A DNA stretch of 45,887 nucleotides from Microcystis wesenbergii FACHB-1317 (GTDB lineage Bacteria; Cyanobacteriota; Cyanobacteriia; Cyanobacteriales; Microcystaceae), in NCBI RefSeq assembly GCF_014696875.1, contig NZ_JACJQV010000159.1, positions 1 to 45,887 of the forward strand. Reading direction: 5' to 3'. The notes under the pieces were generated by a model. It had not been told where the DNA came from and did no database searches. It saw only the letters and a list, made by a program, of their open reading frames with translations. Below, piece by piece: positions 2,520-42,102 of the stretch; within the stretch, counting starts at the first letter, position 1, and every line of letters begins with the position of its first letter. Made by a program: the position numbers and the translations under genes.

Positions 2520-4679
2520 CTAAGATTGACAATAAATATTCCACATTTGCCGATAAGCAGTTTCTAAATCTCTGGTAAATTGTCTGGCATTCCAGAGGGG
2601 AGATGTATGACGAGACTTTCGGAGTTTCCAACGGACTTCTTCTCTTAAATTTCTATCCAATCCTAACTTAATTCCCCACTGCACATATTCCTCATCACTC
2701 CAAGATATACCCTCAGTTATTCCCGCATTCATCATTAAAGTATAACCGTTGCGTGATGACCATTGTTGCCCCACTTTAACCACGAGAGGAATTCCCATCC
2801 AGAGGGTTTCTAAGGTGGTTGTACCACCATTAAAGGGATAGGTGTCCAAAACCACATCAGCGATGGCTAAATTTGCCCTGTAGGTTTCCGTTTTATAGAG
2901 AGGAAGCATCTTAATTCGATTAGTTTCTACCCCAACTTCTGCGGCAATTTGACAGAATAAATCCCAGAGAGAATTATCATCAGCAACTCCTTGAATCAGG
3001 AAATAACTATTAGCTACGGATTTGAGGATTTGCATTTGTAAGCGAATCATCGCAGGATTACGCTTAATTGCTGTTTGAGAACTTAGATAAATAACCGCAT
3101 CGTTATTAATATCTAAATCTTCTCTTCGCAGAGTAGGAACGGCTATTTCAAACCCATCTACAGCGACAAAAGCATCAGGTAAACGCCAGATTTTTTCTTG
3201 ATAATATTCTTGGGCATTTTCTGGTAGTACATAAGGGTCCGCTAAAAGATAATCCACTGCGGGTAAACCGGAACCATCAAAACCTAACCAGTTAACTTGA
3301 ATAGGGGCAGGTTTTAAGGCAATAACTTGGGCAACGATTGCCCCAGTACCACTATCTAAATCCACAAGAATATCGATGTTATCTTCTTTAATTTTGCGGT
3401 AGGTTGCCAGGGAATCAGCAGTAGCATGATAGATTTTATCTGCGGGATTAGAAAACCATTTTTTAGTTATTTCATCCACAGGTTGACTCACCATATAAAG
3501 GTGAATATCAAACTGCTCACGATTGTGATAATTAATAGTCCAACGACTCAATAAACCTACGGGATGACGTTTTAAGCTTTGGGCAATGTAACCAATTTTA
3601 AGTTTTTTGTTGGGATTATTTTCTCTGGGTTTGTCAAAACTTTCCTCCTGAAAACCCAGCATTGCTTTGTAGGTTTCTTGGAAAAAACTGCCAATCTGAT
3701 TTAAAAGCGTTCGATTCTCTTTCGGGTTATCTTCATAGTAAGAAATCGGATTCATAACTGTTAGTAAAGCTTCTCTAACTAAGGGATGTATGTCTTGGGG
3801 CTTTTTTTCTATAAATTCTTTAATTAAGTGTTTATACTCTTGACAAATACTAGGAATGTTATTCCATTTTGAGGCTCGCAAAGAAGCATTAAAAAGGAGA
3901 GATTGACTAAACATTTTTAAATCAATCGTTTGACTTTTCTCTTTCAACTTATTGACTAAATTTATTGCTTTTTCATAGTCAGGTACAGCAACATAAAACC
4001 AGAATAAATTAACGGCTAAGTACCAACTTTCTGGATAAAGGGAAAGAAAAGCTTCCGCTAAGTCAACGGAATAAATAGGTTGATATTTCTCAAAAGCAAA
4101 GTGTCGGGTGACAGTGATGACGTGATTAAGTAATTCTAGAGAATTGCCAAGATAGGATAAACTTAACCGAACTAATTCTATGGTATATTTATGAGCGTAA
4201 GGTATGACGGCAATTACTACCTGTTCCAATAATTGAGAGTTAACTGAACCCTGAGTAATTAATTCTAGTATTTGCCATTCTTGCAGTTGTTGAGGATGAA
4301 ATCTATTTAATTTAATTTCAATGAGGGTTAAATGCAGTAAATTATCGAGATAACTGGGATTAATTTCCTGTAGATGTTTACGAATTAACCAAGAGATTTC
4401 TAGATTTTCTAACTCTAATTGTCGGTTAGCTTCGTCAGCTAAAATATTGCTTAATTCTAGCAGCCATGACTCGGTTTCCTGTTCTTCTCCTTGAGTGAAA
4501 ACAAATAACCAAGTAGCTTGTGCTTCTTCTTCTCTTCCTTGTAAAAGATAGGCTAATCCTAAATACCAATAATGACTAATTTCTAGGGTTTCTCTTTCTA
4601 TCAGTTCTTCGTAAAACTGACTAACAATATCGTATTGATTGTTTTCTAAAGCGGTTTTTACTTCATTTTGCCAAGACAT
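2520..4679 (-). CDS. SPINDLY/OGT-like (GT41) glycosyltransferase, array copy 3
   Basis: 719 aa, same architecture as its neighbours: helical TPR-like N-terminal half, then the GT41 catalytic half starting at IGYIAQSLKRHPVG. The UDP-site Lys region reads SQTAIKRNP and the donor loop GGTTTLETLWMGIPLVV. Its first ~30 residues (MSWQNEVKTALENNQYDIVS onward) are identical to copy 2, whereas the central ~300 residues are strongly diverged. Its C-terminal ~60 residues resemble copy 4 more than copies 1 and 2. The gap to copy 4 is 12 bp and to copy 2 is 17 bp. ATG start. Probably a soluble cytoplasmic protein glycosyltransferase; acceptor unknown. Confidence 0.88.
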   Translation of the reverse strand: MSWQNEVKTALENNQYDIVSQFYEELIERETLEISHYWYLGLAYLLQGREEEAQATWLFVFTQGEEQETESWLLELSNILADEANRQLELENLEISWLIRKHLQEINPSYLDNLLHLTLIEIKLNRFHPQQLQEWQILELITQGSVNSQLLEQVVIAVIPYAHKYTIELVRLSLSYLGNSLELLNHVITVTRHFAFEKYQPIYSVDLAEAFLSLYPESWYLAVNLFWFYVAVPDYEKAINLVNKLKEKSQTIDLKMFSQSLLFNASLRASKWNNIPSICQEYKHLIKEFIEKKPQDIHPLVREALLTVMNPISYYEDNPKENRTLLNQIGSFFQETYKAMLGFQEESFDKPRENNPNKKLKIGYIAQSLKRHPVGLLSRWTINYHNREQFDIHLYMVSQPVDEITKKWFSNPADKIYHATADSLATYRKIKEDNIDILVDLDSGTGAIVAQVIALKPAPIQVNWLGFDGSGLPAVDYLLADPYVLPENAQEYYQEKIWRLPDAFVAVDGFEIAVPTLRREDLDINNDAVIYLSSQTAIKRNPAMIRLQMQILKSVANSYFLIQGVADDNSLWDLFCQIAAEVGVETNRIKMLPLYKTETYRANLAIADVVLDTYPFNGGTTTLETLWMGIPLVVKVGQQWSSRNGYTLMMNAGITEGISWSDEEYVQWGIKLGLDRNLREEVRWKLRKSRHTSPLWNARQFTRDLETAYRQMWNIYCQS

Positions 4680-4696
4680 GATTTAATTCTCCCTAA

Positions 4697-6850
4697 TTAA
4701 CTTTCACAATAGATTTGCCACATTTGACGATAGGCGCTTTCCACATCTTTAGTAAACTGACGTGCATTCCAAAGCGGGGAAGTTTGTCTAGATTCATCTA
4801 ATTTAGCGATAACTTTGCGTCTCAGGTTTTCATCCTTACCTAACTTAATTCCCCAATCGATATACTCCTCATCACTCCAAGCGATACCCTCACTAATTCC
4901 CGCATTAACCATTAAAGTATAACTATTTCTCGATGACCATTGTTGACCAACTTTTGTCACTACAGGAATACCCATCCAAAGAGTTTCTAGAGTAGTGGTT
5001 GCACCACTATAGGGATAGGTATCGATTACCACATCGGCAATTTGGAGATTAGCGCGATGAATTTCTTCGTTAGCAACTCCTGAGAGAAAGCGCAATCTAT
5101 TTTCATCGATTCCTTCCTCTTTAGCAATGCTGATAAATAAATCTTTGATAAGCTTTTCACTCCCCGCACCTTTGATTAATAAATAACTGTTGGGTACTGC
5201 TTTAATAATCTGCATTTGTAAGCGAATTGTGGCAGGATTTCTTTTTAATCCCACTTGCAAAGTTAAATAAGTAATTGCGTCTGCTGGTATGTTTAAATCC
5301 TGTCGGGTTAGCGTTGGTGTTCCGATTTCAAATCCATCCACGGCAAGATAACAATTAGGTAAGCGCCAAAGCTTCTCTTGATAAAACTCCTGAGCATTTT
5401 TTTCTAAAACTAAATTATCTACAAGGAAGTAATCAATAGCAGGTATTCCCGTGGCATCTAATCCTAACCATGTTATTTGAATCGGTGCAGGTTTAAGGGC
5501 CATAACTCGACAGGTGCTATCACGAGTTATACTATCTAAATCTACTAAAATATCGATGTTATCTTGATTAATTTTATCGGCAATAATTTGGTGGTTTGCT
5601 GGTAAATTATTATACTTATGCGCCTTATTTTTAAACCATTGTTCCGTAATATCGTCCTCGACTTGATTGACTAGGTAGAGATGAATATTAAAGTTATCTC
5701 GTTGATGATAATGAATTAACCAGCGACTTAGAAACCCGACAGAATGTCGCCGTAAAGTATGGGCAATATAGCCAATATTTAGCTTTTTATTGACATCTTT
5801 AGGTTTCTGAGACTCGATAGTAACTTGATTAAATTTTTTTCTAACTGCCTCTTGAAAAAGTTTGGCTAACTGATTAGTTAACCTGCGATTACCTACTAAG
5901 TCATCTTTTAAATAAGCTAAGGGAGAAGTGATAGACATAACCTCAGCTTGATTTATCATGGGACATTGACACCGTTCTAAATTATTTTGAATTGCTTGAT
6001 AATATTCTTGGGTTTTATTGTCAATATTTAACCAATTACCTGCTAAAAGTTCCGTATAGAGGAGCAGATAAATACCAGCTATTTTTGATACTTTATCACT
6101 GGATAAATTCTTGATTTTATTAGCAGTTTCTAAGGCCAACTCAAAGTTACCAGTCTCGATATAGTATTGATGAATTTTGTACAAAAGTAGTAAGCGATCG
6201 GGTATAATATCTAGACAGCTAAGAGTCAAAATAACAGCATTAGTTTTATCGGTATAATAAATTTTGTCAATATGTTGTTCGATAATTTCCAATATCGCTG
6301 ATTGTTGTGACTCTATTTTTAAAATGGTTATGATAATATCTAAAACTTCTTGCGCTGGCCAATCTAGAAGTTTATAGATCGTGTGTAGGAGTAAATTTAT
6401 ATCGAAATTTTCTAACTTGTCCGAATTAATTAAATTAACTATTTGCCAATCTTTAAGTTTTTGGGGATAAAAATATTCTAGCTTAATTTCTAACAGCACT
6501 AGATATAATAAATTTTCTAGGTTATCTGGATTTATCTGGTAGATATGCTGACGAATTACCCAGCTTAATTGCCAATTTTTTAGCTTAACTTGTCTTCGCG
6601 CTTCCCCATCCAAAATATTGACTAAATCTGCTGTCCACAGCATCACCTCCTGTTCATCCCCTTGACTGAGGACGAATAACCATGTGGTTTGTGCTTCTTC
6701 TTCCCTAGCTTCCAAAAGATAGGCTAATCCTAAATACCAATAATAACTAATTTCTGTGGCTTCTCTTTCTATCAGTTCTTCGTAAAACTGACTAACAATA
6801 TCGTATTGATTGTTTTCTAAAGCGGTTTTAACTTCATTTTGCCAAGACAT
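4697..6850 (-). CDS. SPINDLY/OGT-like (GT41) glycosyltransferase, array copy 2
   Basis: 717 aa. N-terminal helical repeat region, then a GT41 domain starting at IGYIAHTLRRHSVGFLSRW, with LQVGLKRNP (UDP-site Lys) and GATTTLETLWMGIPVVT (donor loop). The N-terminal ~30 residues match copy 3 exactly. The C-terminal ~95 residues (from WSSRNSYTLMVN) match copy 1 with only a handful of differences. The gene is therefore a mosaic whose two ends agree with different neighbours. The 17-bp spacer after it is nearly the same as the one upstream, so homogenisation covers the junctions too. ATG start. Co-directional with the other copies. Confidence 0.88.
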   Translation of the reverse strand: MSWQNEVKTALENNQYDIVSQFYEELIEREATEISYYWYLGLAYLLEAREEEAQTTWLFVLSQGDEQEVMLWTADLVNILDGEARRQVKLKNWQLSWVIRQHIYQINPDNLENLLYLVLLEIKLEYFYPQKLKDWQIVNLINSDKLENFDINLLLHTIYKLLDWPAQEVLDIIITILKIESQQSAILEIIEQHIDKIYYTDKTNAVILTLSCLDIIPDRLLLLYKIHQYYIETGNFELALETANKIKNLSSDKVSKIAGIYLLLYTELLAGNWLNIDNKTQEYYQAIQNNLERCQCPMINQAEVMSITSPLAYLKDDLVGNRRLTNQLAKLFQEAVRKKFNQVTIESQKPKDVNKKLNIGYIAHTLRRHSVGFLSRWLIHYHQRDNFNIHLYLVNQVEDDITEQWFKNKAHKYNNLPANHQIIADKINQDNIDILVDLDSITRDSTCRVMALKPAPIQITWLGLDATGIPAIDYFLVDNLVLEKNAQEFYQEKLWRLPNCYLAVDGFEIGTPTLTRQDLNIPADAITYLTLQVGLKRNPATIRLQMQIIKAVPNSYLLIKGAGSEKLIKDLFISIAKEEGIDENRLRFLSGVANEEIHRANLQIADVVIDTYPYSGATTTLETLWMGIPVVTKVGQQWSSRNSYTLMVNAGISEGIAWSDEEYIDWGIKLGKDENLRRKVIAKLDESRQTSPLWNARQFTKDVESAYRQMWQIYCES

Positions 6851-6867
6851 GATTTAATTCTCCCTGA

Positions 6868-9018
6868 TTAACTTTCACAATAGATTTGCCACATTTGACG
6901 ATAGGCATTTTCCACATTTTTAGTAAACTGACGTGCATTCCAAATCGGGGAAGTTTGTCTAGATTCATCTAATTTAGCGATAACTTTGCGTCTCAGGTTT
7001 TCATCCTTACCTAACTTAATCCCCCAGTCGATATACTCCTCATCACTCCAAGCAATACCCTCACTAATTCCCACATTAACCATTAAAGTATAACTATTTC
7101 TCGATGACCATTGTTGACCAACTTTTGTAACTAAAGGAATTCCCATCCACAGCACATCTAAAGTCGTCATTCCTCCCGTAAAAGGATAGGTATCTAAAAC
7201 CACATCAGCTATTCTTAAATTTGCTCGATAAATTCCTGTGGGATAGAGGGGTAATATTTTTAATCTCTCATAATTAATTCCTTCTTCCTCGGCAACTTTG
7301 AAAAATAATTTTTCCACTGATTTAGCATCACTTAACCCTTGAATACTCAAATAACTATTAGGAACTGCCTTTAAAATTTGTAGCTGAAGTCGAATAGTTT
7401 CAGGGTTACGTTTAACCCCCGTTTGTACGGTTAAGTAATTAATTGCATCCTCTGGAATCCCTAAATCATCCCTTCGGAGAGAGGGGTAAGCAACCTCGAC
7501 ACCATCCACACAAATATAGGAATTAGGTAAGCGCCAAATTTTTTCTCGGTAATATTCCTGTGCATCTGCTGGTAAAACGTAATTATCAGCAAGATAGTAA
7601 TCAATTGCGGGAATTCCTGACGCATCAAAACCTAACCAAGTCACTTGTATTGGTGCGGGTTTAAGTGCCATGACTTGACAAGTTGTGTTATTAGTGATAC
7701 TGTCTAAATCTACCAAAATATCAATATTATCTTGACTAATTCTTTCAGCAATCATTTGAGGATCGACAGGTAAATTATAGCAAGCATTTACCTGATTTCT
7801 AAAACTATTTTCAGTGATAAGGTCTTCTTTTTGAGATACTAGGTATAAAGATACATGAAACTGGTTATAATCATGATACTTCATTAACCACCTAGAGATT
7901 AATCCGATAGAATGATTATATAATGTATGGGCAATATAGCCAATTTTAAGAACCTTATTGGTATCTTTAATAGTCGATTTTTGATAGTAATTATAGTTAG
8001 AGTTATTGCGAACATACTCCTGAAAAAGTTGACCAATACAATTATTAATGTAACGGTTTTTTTTGGGGTTATCTTCTAGGTAAACTAGAGCAGATAAAAT
8101 TGTTAGGGATGGTTTCTCCAAAAATCTGGGACATTCTCGATTAGCGATACTTTTTTGCAAGGATTCTGCATATTCTTCAATATCTGTCTTAATATCGATC
8201 CAATTACCACTGAATAATTTGACATAAAGAGCAATATAATCAGCGACAGCTTGAGAAGGCAAACCTCGACAAATTGTTTTTAATTGATTAGCTACTTGCA
8301 TAGCAGCGGGAAAATCTCGATTATCAAAATAACATTGATAAAGTTCAGCTAACAGATAAATTTGCCCCGGTTCTACTGCTAAACAAGTATTAATAATATC
8401 AATAGCCAATGGTTTATTATTAATGACTAGAGAAGTTACTTTAGCTTCTACTACTTTGATAAAAGTTTGTCGCTGACAGTTAGATTGAAATATTGCCTCT
8501 AAGTAAGGGACGGTTTCTGGTATCTGATAATCGATAAATTTTCCGAAAACTTCTGCTAATAAACTTAACTCTAGACTCTGGAAATTATTTGTTTTTAACA
8601 CATCAACAAATAACCAAGATTGTAACTGCTCCTGCTCGAAATAATTCAAATTAATTGCTAATAAAATAAACCGCAGTAAATTATCAACATTATCGGGACT
8701 AATCTCGCGAATATGTCCTCGAATTAACCAACTGGTTTCTAAATTGCCTAACTCTAATTGTCTTCGCGCTTCCCCATCCAAAATATTGACTAAATCTGCT
8801 GTCCACCCCATCACTTCCCCTTCATCCCTTTGACTGAGGACGAATAACCATGTGGTTTGCGCTTCTTCTTCCCTAGCTTCCAAAAGATAGGCTAATCCTA
8901 AATACCAATAATGACTAATTTCTAAGGGTTCCTTTTCTATTAATTCTTGATAAAATTGGCTAACTTGCCAGAAATCCCCTTGGATAATTGCCGATTCAAC
9001 TTGGGAATGCCAAGACAT
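6868..9018 (-). CDS. SPINDLY/OGT-like (GT41) glycosyltransferase, array copy 1 (promoter-proximal)
   Basis: 716 aa, first gene of the putative operon. Its N-terminus (MSWHSQVESAIIQGDFWQVS) differs from copies 2 and 3, but from residue ~36 (YYWYLGLAYLLEAREEEAQ-like) it rejoins the shared sequence. The GT41 domain begins at IGYIAHTLYNHSIGLISRW. The UDP-site region is VQTGVKRNP and the donor loop GGMTTLDVLWMGIPLVT, closer to the OGT form (TTGMDVLW) than in its paralogues. The C-terminal ~95 residues are nearly identical to copy 2. No strong consensus promoter was recognised in the 140 bp upstream. ATG start. Confidence 0.88.
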   Translation of the reverse strand: MSWHSQVESAIIQGDFWQVSQFYQELIEKEPLEISHYWYLGLAYLLEAREEEAQTTWLFVLSQRDEGEVMGWTADLVNILDGEARRQLELGNLETSWLIRGHIREISPDNVDNLLRFILLAINLNYFEQEQLQSWLFVDVLKTNNFQSLELSLLAEVFGKFIDYQIPETVPYLEAIFQSNCQRQTFIKVVEAKVTSLVINNKPLAIDIINTCLAVEPGQIYLLAELYQCYFDNRDFPAAMQVANQLKTICRGLPSQAVADYIALYVKLFSGNWIDIKTDIEEYAESLQKSIANRECPRFLEKPSLTILSALVYLEDNPKKNRYINNCIGQLFQEYVRNNSNYNYYQKSTIKDTNKVLKIGYIAHTLYNHSIGLISRWLMKYHDYNQFHVSLYLVSQKEDLITENSFRNQVNACYNLPVDPQMIAERISQDNIDILVDLDSITNNTTCQVMALKPAPIQVTWLGFDASGIPAIDYYLADNYVLPADAQEYYREKIWRLPNSYICVDGVEVAYPSLRRDDLGIPEDAINYLTVQTGVKRNPETIRLQLQILKAVPNSYLSIQGLSDAKSVEKLFFKVAEEEGINYERLKILPLYPTGIYRANLRIADVVLDTYPFTGGMTTLDVLWMGIPLVTKVGQQWSSRNSYTLMVNVGISEGIAWSDEEYIDWGIKLGKDENLRRKVIAKLDESRQTSPIWNARQFTKNVENAYRQMWQIYCES

Positions 9019-9472
9019 AAGTATTTATGGTTAAGTGTTTCTACTAGCGTACCCAAATAGAAGCAAAATTTTTCTATATAAGTAAAATTTATCAGTTTCT
9101 CAGGGGTTGGGTTTTGGGGTGGTCACTGCGTGCGCGTTGCGGGGGGTGTTGGGGTTTTAGTTGAAATTCCCCATTCCCCCATTCCCCCACTTCCCACCTG
9201 TCACTCTCCACCCAGTTTCAACGCGTCCTAAGTAGGTGGGTGGAATTAAATATAAGATGAACGTAGGTTGGGTTGAAGCATGAAACCCAACGCCCGCATG
9301 GGTTACGCTACCGCTAACCCATCCTACAAATAATTGTGCCTCCCTACTTAGCTTATCATCAATCTCAGCCAAGAGTCAGTCCCGATGAAAAAGTTTTCAC
9401 CCCCACAGATGAAAGAGGTTTCCTTCCCTACACCCCACACCCCACACCCTACACCCCACACCCTCTTTCAAG
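9019..9472. other. Repeat-filled intergenic region between GT41 array and cytM
   Basis: Contains C-rich low-complexity stretches (CCATTCCCCC near 9170-9195; CACCCCACACCC near 9428-9465) and a 64-bp dispersed repeat at 9229-9292. A 71-codon frame here is built mostly from this repeat and is not called as a gene. Confidence 0.6.
9229..9292 (+). repeat. 64-bp dispersed repeat, copy A
   Basis: Matches 31126-31189 in inverted orientation with one mismatch that I can see. It contains the palindromic TTGGGTTGAA...AACCCAA core also seen near 15870-15945. Confidence 0.75.
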
Positions 9473-9808
9473 TCAGTTTTTTGAAAGATTTTCTAAATAA
9501 ACCAATAAATCAGCCATAGCTTGAGGATCGGGCTGAAATTTGGGCATTGGCGGGGTTTTCCCACTAATTACCTGTTCAATCAGACTAATTCTCGATTTGC
9601 GATGGGAAACGTCCTCTAAACTTGGTCCGACGATGCCATCAGCAAACTGACCGTGACAAGCAGCACAGTTAATCTGAAAGATTTCGTAACCGCGACTGAC
9701 ATTACCTTGTCGGGATAACACCTCTTTAATGTAGGGATCCGACATCTTAGCCAGATGAAAGGTGATTAAAAAGGTGCTAATCAGGAACAAAACCACGATT
9801 ATAACCAT
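9473..9808 (-). CDS. cytM: Cytochrome M (CytM)
   Basis: Small membrane-anchored c-type cytochrome of cyanobacteria. From the ATG at 9808 it has 111 aa: a single N-terminal hydrophobic anchor (~2-20), the haem motif CAACH (48-52), and Met88 in TPPMPKF as likely sixth haem ligand. GPSLEDVSHRKS and MADLLVYLENL match my memory of Synechocystis CytM. The frame stays open to 9964, but the extra 52 residues lack CytM features, so the 9808 start is preferred. It is divergent from the MscS gene. CytM has been proposed to modulate respiration and photosynthesis under dark or stress conditions; nothing in the sequence tests that. Confidence 0.88.
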   Translation of the reverse strand: MVIIVVLFLISTFLITFHLAKMSDPYIKEVLSRQGNVSRGYEIFQINCAACHGQFADGIVGPSLEDVSHRKSRISLIEQVISGKTPPMPKFQPDPQAMADLLVYLENLSKN

Positions 9809-9992
9809 TGAGAATCGATAAATCCCGAATTTGGGTTTAACTAACTGACTATTCACGAAGGCCGCCGAAGAAAAGATGAGTTTCTCTTTACATTTTGCAA
9901 CTTTTTGCCCGAAAATTCCACCGCCGCTGCTAGAGATAGGCAAATGGAGAATAATATAAGACAAAACTGCATCTTTTTCTAACCCTCTAGCA

Positions 9993-11054
9993 ATGAACCT
10001 ATTAACCAGACTGGAAGATTGGCCCTATATTATCCTACCTATCACCATCATCCTCAGTTTCCTGCTGTTGGGATGGCTCGTAGAAAAGCGCGTTGTCAGT
10101 CAACTTTTATCGATTGCCAGAGAAAAAAACCTGCGTTTCTCGGAAGGGGTTTTACGTTCCCTTCGTGGATTAAGCATACTTTGGTTCGGACTTTTGGGGT
10201 TAAATATTGCCCTCTCCCTTCCCAATCTTCCCCTCTTTCCCTCCCTGATTCTCCTGAGCAAAACATTTCTGCTAGTGGCTTTTTTAGCTTCGGCTACTTG
10301 GGTTGTTGCTCAATTATCCGTGGAAATATTACGAGTTTATACCACGGGAGATGATGGCATTTCTTCCCTAACTTCCCTATTTGAATTTCTCGCCAAAGTT
10401 CTGATTTTTAGCTGCGGTTTTTTGCTGATTTTAAGCTCGATTGGCATTTCGATAACTCCCCTGCTTACTGCCTTTGGTATTGGGGGTGTTTCCCTCGGTT
10501 TAGCTCTCCAAAATACCCTAGCTAATTTAATGTCAGGTATTAATATTATCACTTCTAAAAAAGTTAGACCGGGAGATTATATTGAACTGAGAACGGGAGA
10601 AGCTGGTTATGTGCGAGATGTGGATTTAAGATGCACAGTCATCGAAGAAATTACCAATAATCTTTTGGTTATTCCCAATGCTCAGATCATTTCTTCTAGT
10701 TTCCGTAACTATAGTTTACCAGATAACTCCCTCCTGGTTCCCGTGGAAGTGGGCATTAGTTACGATAGTGACTTAGAAAAAGTCGAAAAAGTTACCCTAG
10801 AAGTCATGCAAGAAATCGCCCAGTTATTGCAACCTAACCTCGGTGACTATCAACCCTTGATCCTTTATCGTAAATTCGATTACTATAGTATCCTGCTGAC
10901 GGTTTATCTCAAGGTGGTAGAAGAAGAATTTTTTCAACACCTCACCATTAAACACGAATTTATTAAACTCCTACACCGACGCTATCAGCAAGAAGGAATT
11001 AAAATTCCCTATCCGATTTTTTTTCCCTATCCCCCCAGTAATCCCCCTAGTTAA
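9993..11054 (+). CDS. Small-conductance mechanosensitive channel family protein (MscS)
   Basis: 353 aa inner-membrane protein. Several hydrophobic segments occupy residues ~10-165. They are followed by the MscS pore-helix/beta-domain signature FGIGGVSLGLALQNTLANL and the VRPGDYIEL segment (~160-200). IPNAQIISSSFRNYS and the C-terminal mixed region fit the MscS cytoplasmic vestibule. The channel family opens under membrane tension during hypo-osmotic shock; cyanobacterial paralogues may have other gating. Start ATG at 9993, divergent from cytM. It ends in a Pro/Ser-rich tail (PYPPSNPPS). Confidence 0.9.
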   Translation: MNLLTRLEDWPYIILPITIILSFLLLGWLVEKRVVSQLLSIAREKNLRFSEGVLRSLRGLSILWFGLLGLNIALSLPNLPLFPSLILLSKTFLLVAFLASATWVVAQLSVEILRVYTTGDDGISSLTSLFEFLAKVLIFSCGFLLILSSIGISITPLLTAFGIGGVSLGLALQNTLANLMSGINIITSKKVRPGDYIELRTGEAGYVRDVDLRCTVIEEITNNLLVIPNAQIISSSFRNYSLPDNSLLVPVEVGISYDSDLEKVEKVTLEVMQEIAQLLQPNLGDYQPLILYRKFDYYSILLTVYLKVVEEEFFQHLTIKHEFIKLLHRRYQQEGIKIPYPIFFPYPPSNPPS

Positions 11055-11098
11055 CCTCAATTTGCTATCGCAACCAACAATTGAAATGCGCGGACAAC

Positions 11099-11779
11099 TT
11101 ACAATTGATAATTCTCCTCAAAAAACTTACGAGTCATCGGTTGGGCAACTTCAATACCGTGGCCTTCTCCTAGTAATTCTAGGGGTTTTCCTTCCACTTG
11201 AATCCAGACTTTGGCATTGGGATCCTCGGTAGTAGTAGTATAGATGATTTGTGCCAAACGACCGATCAACATATCAGGACCATCATCAGTGCCAAACTCC
11301 CGCGAGAGATTAACTTTAATTCCCGTTTTATCTACTTTTAAATCAAGTAATTTAGTCCCGGGGGGAATAGTAGTCATATCCTGAGGATTACTTGGACCTG
11401 CTAATAGAGTTTGCAATACTGCTGTTAACTCTCGGTCGTCGCTATCCGCTTTTTGAACGGTAATTTCTTGGGTGACTAATTGATTACCCCTATCGGTCAC
11501 TTTTAACCAATAAACCTGTCGAGTTTCCCTAACAGGAATAGCTGCAGGAGTTGCTGTCGGACTTGTCTTCACTGGACCGGGAGAAATCGGTTCAACAATT
11601 GGCGATTGACTTATCGGCGCCGGACTGGGAGATTCAATCGGGTTTTCGCTGGTTTTCTGGGAGAAAGATAGGTGATGGACGGCAAACCAAGCAGTGGCAC
11701 CACCAGCAGTAAATAAAGCGAGGCCGATACCAATTATCCAAGGCAAAGAGATTTGATCACTAGAGCGAGAACTAGGCAT
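11099..11779 (-). CDS. GerMN domain protein, membrane-anchored
   Basis: 226 aa: one N-terminal transmembrane segment (~13-33), a Pro/Ser/Thr-rich linker (~40-85), then a GerMN domain (~90-226). The domain contains TAVLQTLLAGPSNPQDMTTI, INLSREF-like KVNLSREFG and a C-terminal AQIIYT segment. GerMN domains occur in spore germination protein GerM and in many non-sporulating bacteria, where they are probably envelope-associated; the function here is unknown. The ATG sits three bases from a run of ~16 heptamer repeats, so copy-number change would move any upstream promoter relative to the gene. Confidence 0.85.
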   Translation of the reverse strand: MPSSRSSDQISLPWIIGIGLALFTAGGATAWFAVHHLSFSQKTSENPIESPSPAPISQSPIVEPISPGPVKTSPTATPAAIPVRETRQVYWLKVTDRGNQLVTQEITVQKADSDDRELTAVLQTLLAGPSNPQDMTTIPPGTKLLDLKVDKTGIKVNLSREFGTDDGPDMLIGRLAQIIYTTTTEDPNAKVWIQVEGKPLELLGEGHGIEVAQPMTRKFFEENYQL

Positions 11780-37393: not shown

Positions 37394-37714
37394 GCTGCCC
37401 GCGCATTTAAATTGCTTGTTGAGATGAGGCAACAGGCAAAAGGCAACCCCCCCGACATCGTAGGGCTGTTTCATTCTCGCAAATGTCATTCAATCAAATC
37501 CTTATCTGGCAAGGTTTTCAGTCAATTTCTCAGAACAAATATCTGAAAAATTTTTAAAATGCCTTGCTTTGCTTGCCCCGTAAGCGATTGAAGACAGACA
37601 AACAAGGAATCAAACTAGAGAATGAATCAGCCCTAGGGTTGGGGGGGGTTGGGGTTGAGGAAAATTAACCATCTCTGCCATTACTTTAGAAAAATGCTAT
37701 TAGCAAAGTCCTAT
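37394..37714. other. Intergenic region occupied by a MITE-like element
   Basis: Apart from the element at 37444-37651 there is GGCAACAGGCAAAAGGCAA (37429-37446) and AT-rich sequence. No gene seen. Confidence 0.6.
37444..37651. mobile_element. 208-bp MITE-like element
   Basis: Imperfect ~32-bp terminal inverted repeats: left CAACCCCCCCGACATCGTAG + GGCTGTTTCATTC, right its near-complement (37620-37651). A solo end with the same sequence lies at ~45524-45558. No coding capacity. Confidence 0.6.
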
Positions 37715-38416
37715 TCACGTTTGATCAGGATTATCCTCTATATTGTTGACTTTCGTTAATTGTGGAAAAATATCTCGTACTGCCTCTTCAAATTTTTTGT
37801 AGGAAGATAAGGATTCTAATTTCGACAATGGGATTTTTGTACCAAGCGGTGAATATAAATCGTCAATTTTTAGTTTATTTCGATACCGTTTAGTTATACC
37901 TTCTCTGGCTTTATTGATGGCATTTTTAATCGTTTCTTTCGGATTGCTAAAAGATTCGGGATCTTTATCGATTGCCAACTCACTATCACTTTTATTTGTA
38001 CACAATTCTTTTTTTAGTAATTCTTTGTCTGCTAATATCCAAGCTTCAGTCATTTGTATTGGAACGATAGCAACTAAATTTTTACATAAGTCTCGCTCGT
38101 CTAATTTAATAGCATTAAAAGCCGGATTAATTCTTTCCTTAAATGCGTTTTTATCTGTTTTATCATCTGCGTCTGCATGGAAGCACAAAACCATTGCTCC
38201 CTTCTCCACCGCTTGAATTGCGTATTTTTTAGCTTTTTCTCGGATATTTTCGCCAGAGATTTGTGGAAGACAAATTGGTTCAAAAATTTCTATTTCTTGT
38301 TTATCGTCAAGAGCAACTCTCTCGAAAGTGCGCTGAATAATATTCGGTAAAAATCTATGATCAGAACTGCCTTCTGTAGCTAAGGCAATAATTATTTGTT
38401 TGATTTTTTTTGCCAT
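37715..38416 (-). CDS. TOPRIM-like (DUF4276/RloB-type) protein, putative defence nuclease
   Basis: 233 aa. The N-terminus IIIALATEGSSDHRFLPNII places Glu15 in a TOPRIM-like EG..D motif. VLCFHADADDKTD supplies DxD (Asp82, Asp84). VPIQMTEAWILADKELL matches the P..EAWILAD block of DUF4276-type proteins. These acidic residues are those expected to bind catalytic metal in OLD-type nucleases. It follows an AAA ATPase gene by 10 bp on the same strand, so the two are probably co-transcribed and act together. Function as effector of an anti-phage module is inference; the DUF number is from memory. ATG start. Confidence 0.72.
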   Translation of the reverse strand: MAKKIKQIIIALATEGSSDHRFLPNIIQRTFERVALDDKQEIEIFEPICLPQISGENIREKAKKYAIQAVEKGAMVLCFHADADDKTDKNAFKERINPAFNAIKLDERDLCKNLVAIVPIQMTEAWILADKELLKKELCTNKSDSELAIDKDPESFSNPKETIKNAINKAREGITKRYRNKLKIDDLYSPLGTKIPLSKLESLSSYKKFEEAVRDIFPQLTKVNNIEDNPDQT

Positions 38417-38426
38417 CTTAATTGAT

Positions 38427-39851
38427 TTACGTTAATTGGTTTGGTTGATTTTTAATATTTTTAATCGCACTTTCAGCATCAGCAGTTTTTAGATATTCGA
38501 CAACTTCCGAGAGAGTTAGCTTGGCCTCATTTTCGGAGTAAAATAAGGTTAATTGCTTTTTATTCTCTTTGATAACAGGGTGAAAATTACTGCTTTTCAT
38601 CTTAATTCGTTTCCCTTCAATAGTGGATATTCGATTGGTAAGTTGAGAAAGCCAAATGCTGACATTTTCATCATCTTGCCAATTAATTAATTGACTCACC
38701 AGAACTGGAGAATGAGTGTTCACTATTACTTGGCGTAAAGGCATTTCAGTATCTTTAAAATCGACAGTTAGCTCTTTTAATAATCTTGCCATTGCTTCAA
38801 TACGAAAAGGATGAATGCCATTTTCTGGCTCTTCAAAACACAGTAATCCTGTGTGTTGTTGGTCGTATTGCAGGACACATAATGTTAATAAACGTAGGGT
38901 TCCTTCCGAAAGCACTCTCGAAGAAAACTCCCGACCATCATCACCTTTTACCTTGATAATAAATTGTCGATTTGCTTTGTCATCATAAACATTAACTTCT
39001 GTAAGATTCGGTAGCAGATTATTGAGATCACGGGAAATTGCTGTGAGGGTATATTCATCATCTTGTTTAATGCGAAATAAAGCAGCGGCTAAATTCTTTC
39101 CGCTTGCTGTTATTGTATCTCTGATGCCTAGATCTTGACGAGTAGGTTCTCGCAGATCTTCGGGATTAAGCTGCATAAACTTCCAACTCAGCATTTCTTG
39201 TTTGGCGGCTAATATATGTTGAAAATCTATGGTATTAATGCTGCTTAAAACAGTTTGTGATGCGTTTTTTGCGGGAAATACTTTTTTATTCCCCGCTTGA
39301 CCGTCTTGATGTACAACAATGGTAGCAATACCACTCTTATCTTCAGTCTTAATATAAGGAATCGCTCTCCTACCCGTTACTTTTGGTCGCCAAGTTTCCA
39401 ATACTGTCTTAGGAATATAATTTTTTACCCAATTATCTTCATTGTGCTTTAAGTTTTCTAAACGTTCATCAACAATATACAAGTTTTCAAATCCACTTAT
39501 ATTAGACTCTCGTTTAATTTTTAATTGATAGCGCAACCTTGTATATTTAAGATCGACTTCCCCACCCCAATTATCTTTTACCTTGCGATTGACTAACATT
39601 TCAACTATAAATTCCATTTCCGTGGCGTAGTCGTCCTCATCATACTGGGTAAAAAGTTCGCTAGGATGTCCTCTTTGCTCGCTAAAAGCCGTCTTCAGAT
39701 CCACTTCTGCCAGCCGCGCCAACAATTGCAAAGCATCAAATAAATTACTCTTACCAGAAGCATTAACCCCAGCAACTACAGTAAGCGGCGTGAATACCAT
39801 TTCAAAATTATGAAAGGATTTAAAGCCATGAATTTTAATATAAGTAATCAT
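38427..39851 (-). CDS. AAA family ATPase (RecF/SMC-like), putative defence sensor
   Basis: 474 aa, ABC-type ATPase of the AAA_21/OLD group. Walker A GVNASGKSN (28-36), ABC signature LSEGT (314-318), Walker B LLCFEEPENG (336-345) and His380 in NTHSPVLVSQL (H-loop). The middle (~80-300) is variable and helical. The protein lacks its own TOPRIM domain, which the neighbouring gene supplies, as in split OLD-like systems (for example the ATPase-DUF4435 pair of PARIS). First gene of the pair. ATG start; no promoter consensus found. Confidence 0.85.
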   Translation of the reverse strand: MITYIKIHGFKSFHNFEMVFTPLTVVAGVNASGKSNLFDALQLLARLAEVDLKTAFSEQRGHPSELFTQYDEDDYATEMEFIVEMLVNRKVKDNWGGEVDLKYTRLRYQLKIKRESNISGFENLYIVDERLENLKHNEDNWVKNYIPKTVLETWRPKVTGRRAIPYIKTEDKSGIATIVVHQDGQAGNKKVFPAKNASQTVLSSINTIDFQHILAAKQEMLSWKFMQLNPEDLREPTRQDLGIRDTITASGKNLAAALFRIKQDDEYTLTAISRDLNNLLPNLTEVNVYDDKANRQFIIKVKGDDGREFSSRVLSEGTLRLLTLCVLQYDQQHTGLLCFEEPENGIHPFRIEAMARLLKELTVDFKDTEMPLRQVIVNTHSPVLVSQLINWQDDENVSIWLSQLTNRISTIEGKRIKMKSSNFHPVIKENKKQLTLFYSENEAKLTLSEVVEYLKTADAESAIKNIKNQPNQLT

Positions 39852-40335
39852 AGTTTTAGTCGATAAGTAATATTAAAACATCAGCGCGACATTTAACCAT
39901 ACTGGACAATCTTCTCAACTTTCGCCCGATACTGTCCTACTATAATCTAGATATTGGTGGCTCTTCGGTTTATGTTATGCAATAGACGGGGGTTATAAGG
40001 GATGGAACCCTTATATAGAAAAGCATTTAGCGATTTTTGTCAATTGTTTTTGATCTAGAGCGAACTAATCAATTAAGTCTCTTGCCAGATAAGGATTTAG
40101 TCGATTTATGCTCCCCTATCGAACCATACCAAGTAACGAAGAGCCATATTGGTTTACAGGAGGTAGTGCGATTACGCTGATTTTGTCGGGTGCGTTCCCT
40201 GCTGCAACGAGGGAGAACGCACCTTACCGATCGATTCCTGAGAGTATGGGATATTAGTCTAACAAAGCCCATAGACAACAGCTTATCTAGCTGGCGGCCG
40301 ACGGCTGATGGCTGACGGCTAAAAATATAACTATC
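39852..40335. other. Intergenic region with MITE-like element and hairpin
   Basis: Contains the 187-bp element at 39959-40145 and a hairpin GGTGCGTT...AACGCACC (~40179-40214). GGCTGATGGCTGACGGCT at ~40301-40320 is a short imperfect repeat. No gene seen. Confidence 0.6.
39959..40145. mobile_element. 187-bp MITE-like element with GGCTCTTCG ends
   Basis: The terminal inverted repeats start GGCTCTTCG and remain imperfectly similar for ~30 bp. The ends resemble ISL3-family termini (from memory). The same right end occurs at 100-113. Confidence 0.6.
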
Positions 40336-40352
40336 TCAAGGTCGCGAGAGGA

Positions 40353-40384
40353 CTCCCGTTAAACTGCGTAGCGGTTAACGGGAG
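40353..40384. repeat. Left-end hairpin of IS605-type element
   Basis: A 10-bp perfect stem with a 12-nt loop. It corresponds to the subterminal hairpin recognised by TnpA in this family. Confidence 0.7.
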
Positions 40385-40406
40385 ATAAATCGCCACCAGA
40401 ATAAAA

Positions 40407-40837
40407 CTAACGCGGTAGCGTTTCCACTTTCGGGGAGTTTTGATTCTCAACATATTTTTTTAGTTGTTCAACAGTTACTCCGCCACAACTGGCCACGAAA
40501 TAACCTCCCGTCCAAAAATAGGGTTTGTTGTAGAAATACTTTGCCGCCAAATCCAGAAATTCCTTTCTAATTAAGCGACTACTAACTGTTTTAAGGTTAG
40601 CGATTAATTTGGATAAAGCAATGTCAGGCTTGTCATCAATAATCAGGTGAACGTGATCCGATTCACCGTTGAAATCAAGTAATGTGCTGTCCCATTTTGT
40701 GACGTTGATACAAAGATTTCTTTAAGTCGGGCTAAGATTTCATTGTTAATAACTTTTCGTCGGTATTTGATGACAAATACAACATGAGCAGTAAGTTTGT
40801 AAACAGAGCGAAATCCATGATTGTAATCGGTTGACAT
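40407..40837 (-). pseudogene. tnpA: IS200-type transposase TnpA, frameshifted
   Basis: The first ~47 codons (TDYNHGFRSVYKLTAHVVFV, KYRRKVINNEIL) read from the ATG at 40837. Near 40697 the frame is lost, as if one A were missing before TGGGAC. The rest continues in another frame: FNGESDHVHLIIDDKPDI (HUH motif), KLIANLKTVSSRLIRKEF, YFWTGGYFVASCGG, QLKKYVENQ (catalytic Tyr) and a stop at 40407. Together these make a full-length ~143-residue Y1 transposase, so one indel disabled an otherwise complete gene. Programmed frameshifting or sequencing error cannot be excluded. Confidence 0.85.
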
Positions 40838-40887
40838 ATTAGGCAGTAAGTGTTAGAATTTAATTTTACATCACGAAACAAACGACA

Positions 40888-42102
40888 GTGATAACGCTTA
40901 CCTACCAGTACAAACTAAAGGTAAACAGGCAACAGGAACGGGAGATCGTCCACATTCTTGATGTTTGTAAGAGCGTTTATAATTACGCGCTCTCGGAGCG
41001 AAAAGACTGGCTAAACTCTCGAAAGTCTCTTGCGGATCGCTGTTCTTTAGTTTCCGAGTATATAATTTCCGCGGATGAACCTTATCCTAATTACTTCGTT
41101 CAAGCCAAAAATCTAACGGAAGCTAAAAAAATCTATCCGATATTAAAGACGGTTAACGCTCAAGTTTTACAGCAAGTTTTAAAAACTGTAGATAAAGCTT
41201 TTTCTGACATGAAATCGAAAGGCTTCGGCTTTCCTAGATTTAAGAAAAAGATGCGGAGTTTTGTTTTTCCTGCGCTGTCAAAAAACTTCTTAGGTGACGA
41301 ATACTTAAATTTTCCACAATTGGGAAAAATTCGGATTAGGAAATCTAGGGAGTACCCGTCTGGGTTTGAGCCTAAACAAGCTCGAATTATCCAAAAAGCG
41401 TCGGGATTTTACGTTTCGGTTTCTTTCCAATCTCCGGAATTAGTTCCCGATATGACAGTTGGGAAGACCTGTTTAGGAATTGACGCGGGAATTGAAAGTT
41501 TTGTCGCTACTTCACGAGGAGATTTAATCAAAGCCCCTCGATTTTTGTTGAAAGTACAGAGTAAGCTTAAATTGCTACAAAGACGCTTAAAACATCAAGT
41601 CAAAGGCTCGAACAATTGGTTGAAACTCCAAGAGAAGATAGCGAGATTACACGAAAAAGTGTCTAATACTCGTAGAGATTGGCACTTTAAATTAAGTCAT
41701 TACCTTTGCGATCTTGCTGATAATATTTTCGTTGAAGATATTAACTTCGTTTCCTGGTCTAGAGGGATCGTTAGAAAACAATCTCTAGATTCGGGTATCG
41801 GTAGTTTTATTAACGAGATACTACCGTTTGTCGCTTGGAAACGGGGAAAATATTATCTTAAAGTCGATAAAAACGGAACCTCGCAAGAGTGTCCGAATTG
41901 TGGCGCGATTACTGGCAAAAAGTCGTTATCGGAAAGAGTTCACCGGTGTGATTCTTGCGGTCACATCGAACCAAGAGATACAGCATCAGCGAAGGTAATC
42001 GAGAATCGAGGCAAAAACGCGGTCGGACTGACCGTGTTAGAAAATGCTCGCGGAGGCGATTTGACGGGGATCGACCGGGTTAAACCCAGTCGATCTAGTT
42101 AA
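40888..42102 (+). CDS. tnpB: RNA-guided nuclease TnpB (IS605 accessory)
   Basis: 404 aa, GTG start. It has an N-terminal helical/WED-like region, then a split RuvC nuclease with all three acidic residues: Asp199 (LGIDAGIES), Glu283 (FVEDINF) and Asp364 (EPRDTASAK). A zinc finger has Cys335/338 (CPNC) and Cys354/357 (CDSC). TnpB proteins cut DNA guided by an RNA from the right end of the element and favour element retention. Unlike tnpA, this gene is unbroken. The guide RNA would overlap its 3' end and the right hairpin. Confidence 0.93.
   Translation: MITLTYQYKLKVNRQQEREIVHILDVCKSVYNYALSERKDWLNSRKSLADRCSLVSEYIISADEPYPNYFVQAKNLTEAKKIYPILKTVNAQVLQQVLKTVDKAFSDMKSKGFGFPRFKKKMRSFVFPALSKNFLGDEYLNFPQLGKIRIRKSREYPSGFEPKQARIIQKASGFYVSVSFQSPELVPDMTVGKTCLGIDAGIESFVATSRGDLIKAPRFLLKVQSKLKLLQRRLKHQVKGSNNWLKLQEKIARLHEKVSNTRRDWHFKLSHYLCDLADNIFVEDINFVSWSRGIVRKQSLDSGIGSFINEILPFVAWKRGKYYLKVDKNGTSQECPNCGAITGKKSLSERVHRCDSCGHIEPRDTASAKVIENRGKNAVGLTVLENARGGDLTGIDRVKPSRSS

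Follow-up and report, generated by a model that had tools for sequence, protein, structure and literature searches.

The contig NZ_JACJQV010000159.1 of Microcystis wesenbergii FACHB-1317 (45,887 nucleotides, the whole of which is called the window here) carries on its minus strand a real, intact, mobile two-gene module of a catalogued candidate family, HEC-01. We consider it fairly probable that the pair is an HEC-01-type split OLD module, in which an ABC ATPase would sense infection and license a two-metal TOPRIM-like nuclease effector. The first gene, HEC-01A, encodes an OLD-type ABC ATPase of 474 amino acids (38427..39851), identified by Pfam AAA_21, PADLOC, and a PDB profile search, and the second, HEC-01B, encodes a candidate DUF4276 TOPRIM-like effector of 233 amino acids (37715..38416), identified by Pfam, PADLOC, and profile-profile comparison. 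According to the open reading frame (ORF) coordinates, a 10-bp intergenic spacer (38417..38426) separates the two genes. Both ORFs were recovered where an earlier note on this DNA had placed them, the ATPase first and the effector after 10 bp. A 97% identical effector is encoded in a record of Microcystis novacekii, and a 91% identical one in a record of M. aeruginosa.

Searches were performed with models from PADLOC-DB 2.0.0, Pfam, and NCBIfam. By its sequence, the pair is a new example of the catalogued candidate HEC-01 and not a new system, because both proteins matched the corresponding PADLOC models nearly full length: PDLC04184 (HEC-01A) matched the ATPase at 472 bits (E value 5.5e-142, residues 1-460 on profile positions 1-463 of 464), and PDLC04212 (HEC-01B) matched the effector at 169.8 bits (2.1e-50, positions 2-218 of 222). 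As expected of HEC-01, the genes are adjacent on one strand. HEC stands for Hma-embedded candidate in the available text of PMC12988326 and PMC12111858, and the window pair differs in that PADLOC matched none of its seven closest neighbours to an Hma model; Hma embedding is how HEC candidates were discovered and was not treated as a requirement for every copy. The earlier note had presented the pair as an unlabelled candidate, which has to be withdrawn: PADLOC already models this ATPase-effector pairing as HEC-01, and the theme of TOPRIM effectors working with OLD-ABC ATPases is in print (available portions of PMC12839542 and PMC12409363). Full-text searches of the literature found no paper on DUF4276; of the 15 papers listed for HEC-01, one looked relevant from its title, and in the portion available it mentions HEC-01 barely within a list of Desulfovibrio piger systems. 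The labels of PADLOC models PDLC04143 and PDLC04144 look swapped, since PDLC04144, named HEC-01B (395 positions), matches ATPases, and PDLC04143, named HEC-01A (190 positions), matches a DUF4276 protein.

The ATPase matched Pfam AAA_21 at 4.5e-33, confirming the assignment made in the earlier note, and an alignment of nine ATPases located all of the motifs that the note had named at their expected sites on the minus strand. Walker A (GVNASGKS, residues 28-35, including Lys34) lies at 39747..39770, with G28, N30, G33, K34, and S35 unchanged in all nine proteins; the ABC signature LSEGT (residues 314-318) lies at 38898..38912, with S315, G317, and T318 unchanged in 9/9. The Walker B region LLCFEEPE (residues 336-343), which contains CFEEPE, lies at 38823..38846, with E341, P342, and E343 likewise invariant, and the H-loop histidine, His380 (NTHS; 38712..38714), is present in eight of the nine and replaced by Gln in the remaining one. 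A search of solved structures with a profile of these nine ATPases detected OLD (6p74) at 2.2e-17, and the best solved relatives were OLD, Eco8 OLD, PtuA, GajA, and AriA. The protein's sequence thus assigns it to the OLD-type ABC ATPases.

The effector had been described as DUF4276-like with a TOPRIM-type arrangement of acidic residues. A hidden Markov model search supported the family assignment, with Pfam DUF4276 matching at 2.2e-8 and 35.0 bits, little above the curated 30.2-bit cut-off. An alignment of 37 DUF4276 proteins placed Glu15, Asp82, and Asp84 at the positions named and confirmed the pattern E...DxD. Glu15 (TEGSSD; 38372..38374, minus strand), a putative metal-A ligand that falls on the EG motif of OLD and DUF4435 proteins, though weakly for the window clade alone, is Glu in 34 and Asp in 3 of the 37 sequences. 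The putative metal-A pair Asp82-x-Asp84 (38165..38173, minus strand) has Asp at position 82 in 36/37 and, at position 84, Asp in 18, Glu in 7, Tyr in 11, and Asn in 1. Four residues beyond Glu15 lies Asp19 (38360..38362, minus strand), a putative metal-B ligand at the TsOLD spacing, where 23/37 proteins carry an acidic residue. The EAWILAD block (residues 124-130; 38027..38047, minus strand) contains the invariant Glu124 (37/37) and an Asp130 shared by 33/37. According to the available text of PMC7049728, TsOLD is a DNA nuclease in which E377, D381, D431, and D433 are ligands of metals A and B; the effector reproduces the spacing of E377-D381 with Glu15-Asp19 and that of D431-x-D433 with Asp82-x-Asp84, and its Glu124 would correspond to TsOLD E480.

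To compare families, we used a DUF4276 profile of the same 37 sequences, which includes 22 of the 29 loci obtained from 60 sampled genomes of the order Cyanobacteriales (L093, L095, L101, L104, L111, L112, and L115 were omitted), an OLD-TOPRIM profile built from 5 of 10 loci, and a DUF4435 profile built from 8 of 12, together with 8 + 8 single TOPRIM templates. The DUF4276 profile matched DUF4435 at an E value of 1.9e-5 over 97 columns (probability 78%) and OLD-TOPRIM at 3.9e-5 over 111 columns (probability 70%), and four reversed controls to this comparison gave 0.21-0.91. As a benchmark, DUF4435 and OLD-TOPRIM, both accepted TOPRIM families, reached just 0.0022 when compared with each other in the same way. 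When the DUF4276 profile was ranked against 110 single templates, comprising the 16 TOPRIM templates and 94 decoy ORFs (112 ORFs less 18 that matched our own ATPase or DUF4276 profile), ranks 1-11 were all TOPRIM, the best decoy stood at rank 12 (E value 0.04), and rank 13 was again a TOPRIM template. The window clade alone aligned weakly with the OLD-TOPRIM and DUF4435 profiles, in the correct register at TEGSSDHRFL, and reversed TOPRIM profiles scored 0.22-0.76 against it; against the remaining DUF4276 clades it scored between 2.3e-4 and 0.13. A TOPRIM reading of the DUF4276 effector has support at the level of family profiles. A PDB sequence search with the effector as a single sequence returned nothing convincing (best E value 0.052, NrdI), and a search of the PDB with effector profile A3 returned no match at E values up to 10.

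Analysis of other genomes revealed that the two genes belong together, being tightly linked and co-diverging. The neighbourhood check proposed in the earlier note bore out their co-occurrence: an OLD-type ATPase frame lies upstream on the same strand in 34/34 DUF4276 loci, 29 from the order genomes and 5 from this genome. Because three of this genome's five ATPases (window, L001, and L003) had gone into the ATPase profile, the independent part of the count is the 29 new loci. Upstream is not always adjacent in this count: the ATPase frame of L092 ends about 1.1 kb before the DUF4276 match, those of L112, L005, L111, and L106 stand about 0.7, 0.25, 0.2, and 0.17 kb off with the DUF4276 match itself partial, and the ATPase match of L115 is weak (1.3e-9). 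The 35 control stretches contained no ATPase match except the window's own ATPase, which fell in two of them. Searching from the other side gave the same picture. An effector-type gene adjoins each of the seven strongest HEC-01A matches (G008, G000, G002, G142, G206, G136, and G276), the G276 partner matching HEC-01B weakly at 21 bits, and nine downstream partners scanned with Pfam all matched DUF4276 at E values of 0.004 or less, five of them above the cut-off.

All 33 pairs that were measured abut or overlap, with intergenic distances ranging from a 16-base gap to a 20-base overlap. Pairwise distances of ATPases and effectors across these 33 pairs correlated at r = 0.959, a value that none of 5000 permutations matched. 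The test used 20 of the 29 order loci (L092 and L113 were dropped besides those missing from the alignment), and excluded the decayed own-genome loci L002 and L005 and both L061 pairs; it sought an ATPase-sized frame ending between 250 bases before and 200 bases after the effector start, with effector starts chosen by script. Because three widely dissimilar pairs in the set come from this one genome, the co-divergence goes beyond what shared host ancestry alone would produce. The L061 locus (positions 4217-11384, genome G276) holds two different ATPase-DUF4276 pairs in tandem, situated between a type I specificity gene and a gene that looks HipA-like by eye.

The earlier note had compared the pair with OLD and PARIS, and the resemblance stands as far as a split module is concerned, with an OLD-type ATPase and a separate DUF4276 effector; membership of PARIS does not. 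Like AriA and AriB, the window genes encode an OLD-type ABC ATPase and a putative TOPRIM-type effector separately. PARIS AriA models matched the window ATPase at 117 and 75 bits, below the 472 bits of HEC-01A. The window effector, however, is a DUF4276 protein, while AriB belongs to DUF4435. That the effector family would differ from that of PARIS had been anticipated correctly: the effector matched neither DUF4435 in Pfam nor AriB in PADLOC at E values up to 1, on which ground the PARIS assignment was rejected. Of the five DUF4276 loci in the genome as a whole, two are decayed; DUF4435 (E value 0.001) and OLD-TOPRIM have no match there. Two of the five (L001 and L002, G000:C197 39635 and 9112) are pairs that look nearly identical by eye and lie in opposite orientation on one contig; the ATPase frame of L002 is cut short.

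The fused OLD nucleases (P2 Old, TsOLD, GajA, and HEC-04/IbfA) share the ATPase family and, as judged from partial source text, an equal spacing of putative metal ligands, and differ in having both domains in one chain (classes 1-3), whereas the window pair consists of two ORFs. In the PADLOC scan of the seven closest window neighbours, no Gabija model was matched. In the available text of PMC12111858, HEC-04/IbfA is an ABC ATPase fused to TOPRIM that is active against T4 and T5, which by analogy makes a defence role of HEC-01 plausible without demonstrating it. MADS, for which a TOPRIM-ATPase association is mentioned in the accessible part of PMC12409363, was also considered. NCBIfam MAD3 matched the window ATPase at 3.3e-43, yet its 148.4 bits fall short of the 420 bits required, and MAD4 reached 15.2 bits (0.017) where 160 are required; with both scores below the NCBIfam cut-offs, this candidate was rejected. 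PADLOC matched none of the seven neighbours closest to the pair to a MADS model. An RloB effector was likewise rejected, as RloB was not among the three Pfam matches at E values up to 1.

On the preferred reading of a split OLD module, the ATPase would form an oligomer that keeps the small TOPRIM-like effector inactive. It would sense a phage product or an infection-induced change, and an ATP-driven rearrangement would then release or switch on the effector, which would cut nucleic acid with two metal ions, Glu15, Asp82, and Asp84 binding metal A and probably Asp19 and Glu124 binding metal B. The infected cell would be halted (abortive infection), as with AriA/AriB in PARIS, where, in the text available from PMC12409363, AriB is a two-metal tRNA nuclease freed once a phage trigger has been detected by AriA. 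The fold of the effector and the elements of this scheme (assembly of the complex, sensing, nuclease activity, and abortive infection) are inferred. As to the substrate, the tRNase activity of AriB, the split partner in PARIS, inclines us towards RNA (tRNA), with DNA nearly as likely. It is accordingly a serious possibility, if somewhat short of an even chance, that the pair is a split OLD nuclease whose effector nicks or degrades phage or host DNA like fused OLD or GajA. Fused OLD is the best solved match of the ATPase profile, the DUF4276 profile fits OLD-TOPRIM almost as closely as it fits DUF4435, and, within the text seen of PMC7049728, the metal-ligand spacing fits a DNA nuclease; however, the match to DUF4435 is slightly better, and the DUF4435 protein AriB cuts tRNA (PMC12409363, same portion).

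Several observations weigh against the reading as a split OLD defence module. At the effector's position 84, the second residue of the proposed metal-A pair, 11 of 37 relatives carry Tyr. The four TOPRIM templates outside the top 13 were placed at 25, 27, 44, and 98 of 110. When the window clade was compared alone, its matches to the TOPRIM profiles were weak (E values 0.005-0.028 over 18-26 columns), and one reversed DUF4276 profile scored 0.036, which brings the weakest window-clade values to noise level. Two other clade profiles were also weak, A6 at 0.093 against DUF4435 and 0.25 against OLD-TOPRIM, and A7 at 0.031 and 0.0018, respectively. AlphaFold, run on two closely similar effector sequences, gave no confident structure (predicted local distance difference test score 35.5), and the model was discarded. 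In G010 (L052, C1 632000-650000), an intact 476-amino-acid ATPase frame stands beside an effector of which about 24 N-terminal residues survive. Of six pairs within the genus, five gave an effector ratio of nonsynonymous to synonymous substitution rates (dN/dS) of 0.5-0.65, and the remaining one, with 13 changes, gave 1.38. Finally, PADLOC revealed no clear defence gene in the seven neighbours closest to the window pair, and the neighbours scanned in L057 and L086 gave no PADLOC defence match at an E value of 1e-10.

Selection and the condition of the genus copies also bear on whether the module functions at all. Within the genus, dN/dS of the ATPase was 0.14-0.38 (15 pairs), and towards G142 the values were 0.08-0.10 for the ATPase and 0.20-0.22 for the effector, with synonymous sites saturated; these calculations excluded two effectors, that of L056 being interrupted and that of L052 truncated. 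Both proteins have been constrained over long times, and the effector changes faster. Broken copies in the genus, namely the G004 effector with a stop, the truncated G010 effector, and ATPase remnants with stops in G000, G011, and G005, could suggest a decaying, non-functional relic carried by mobile elements, an explanation that we regard as very improbable given the intact frames of both window genes, the retained catalytic residues, and an ATPase dN/dS that stays well below 1.

Comparison of strains demonstrated that the module has been gained, lost, and moved within the genus. Across 12 genus genomes, the effector was found as an uninterrupted full-length frame in four, with a stop in one, as a fragment in one, and not at all in six. 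The module adjoins infC in G001, G002, and G010; purB was identified on its far side in G001 and G002, and the purB side is common to G004 and G008. Copies of a hairpin repeat of about 48 bp bracket the module in G001, G002, and G010; the left copy in G001 carries an insertion, and in G010 roughly 4 kb of additional DNA lies on one side. In G007 and G009, which lack the module, one hairpin copy marks the junction, and G007 has another about 2 kb from it. As hairpins flank the module in the former three and a single copy remains in the latter two, repeat-repeat recombination may move defence cassettes beside infC. Repeat comparison located the hairpin that flanks the module in other strains at 40178..40226 of the window, and further copies at L054 6620-6667 and 9062-9109, L131 4485-4534, and L129 about 7200-7247.

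N-terminal remnants of a HEC-01A ATPase stand beside infC in this genome (G000; L126 3429-3728, G000:C98), in G011 (L127 3518-3808), and in G005 (L128 3591-3980), with 79, 84, and 68% identity to the window ATPase and one, one, and two stops, respectively; they share the position and orientation of the intact module in other strains. The intact window copy is located away from infC, accompanied by about 180 bp of infC-side DNA: comparison with other strains showed that 40148..40331 is homologous to the infC side of their locus. G011, a genome of the same species, was also considered as a clean empty site for the window copy, as it lacks 37461-42000, and was rejected; its junction lies inside the right end of an insertion sequence (IS), making deletion as likely as absence.

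This turnover could also be read in terms of a toxin-antitoxin-like stabiliser of the mobile stretch, with defence secondary, in which the ATPase would restrain a toxic effector and loss of the module would harm the cell. The two genes are tightly coupled, the module is gained and lost at infC and relocated in this genome, and two miniature inverted-repeat transposable elements (MITEs) and an IS surround the pair. We nevertheless think this unlikely, since loss appears to be tolerated: the ATPase remnants had no effector match in the 7-8 kb fetched around them, and one strain retains its ATPase beside the truncated effector. The loci of three relatives, moreover, adjoin restriction or other PADLOC genes.

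The mobile setting described in the earlier note holds in that a MITE and an IS200/IS605-type element flank the pair; its simple picture does not, as two MITE-like elements are present. One, downstream of the pair (37463..37633), has terminal inverted repeats, a TA duplication, and many copies in this genome. The second, upstream (39959..40145), has inverted repeats, many copies, and an 8-bp duplication, ATATTGGT; because of this duplication and its absence from the matching point in three otherwise matching genomes (L052, L053, and L054), it is a later insertion. Beyond it, the TnpB gene of the IS200/IS605-type element (40888..42102, plus strand; OrfB_IS605, 1.9e-20) is multicopy, with repeat copies extending to about 42163. 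Just a 64-amino-acid frame of a possible IS200-type tnpA (40643-40837) was listed beside the intact-looking TnpB, so that this IS copy may be incapable of transposing on its own.

The window does not resemble a defence island. Three of the seven nearest neighbours matched PADLOC models, an EF-G-like protein LeoA at 25.6 bits, TnpB Cas12, and an AAA protein IetA at 89.9 bits; these matches look like superfamily similarity. Among nine hand-picked neighbours of relatives, four matched PADLOC defence models: a type II restriction enzyme and a methyltransferase in L053, PbeA in L058, and a type I specificity protein in L061. In G001, the genes next to the module encode a type II restriction enzyme and a methyltransferase.

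As carriers of the module, phages and plasmids were considered and rejected. A tblastn search of plasmids with the effector found nothing, and the same search of phages found one record, MT836135.1 (L086), an unannotated faecal scaffold recorded as 'Bacteriophage sp.' in which the ORFs surrounding the pair appear, by eye, to be bacterial-chromosomal (ruvB- and flippase-like). On this gut contig the two genes abut, the ATPase being 61% and the effector 41% identical to those of the window. Scans of viral contigs with window-clade alignments or single relatives found nothing; scans with other DUF4276 clades found six loci, five of them usable, and all five with enough flank have an OLD-type ATPase frame upstream on the same strand. 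A final scan yielded two records, both already in the set.

Taken further, DUF4276 might be a third large branch of TOPRIM effectors beside DUF4435 and the fused OLD TOPRIM, with its own co-diverging OLD-type ATPase, and lineages of split modules might swap at fixed chromosomal sites, infC in Microcystis, through recombination between dispersed hairpin repeats. We offer this broad proposal tentatively and hold it to be rather doubtful; if it is true, each strain holds a private set of sensors and effectors.

What this analysis adds is the profile evidence linking DUF4276 to TOPRIM, for which no priority is claimed, the co-divergence with the ATPase, and the turnover beside infC in Microcystis. 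A pair spotted by eye is now a named, catalogued candidate, and DUF4276, a family of 'unknown function', has the appearance of a TOPRIM effector, for which five residues can be named as targets for mutation. These cyanobacteria include bloom-formers, in which phage resistance is ecologically interesting. As DUF4276 was present in 30 of the 60 sampled genomes of the order, the mechanism of this one pair could apply widely among them.

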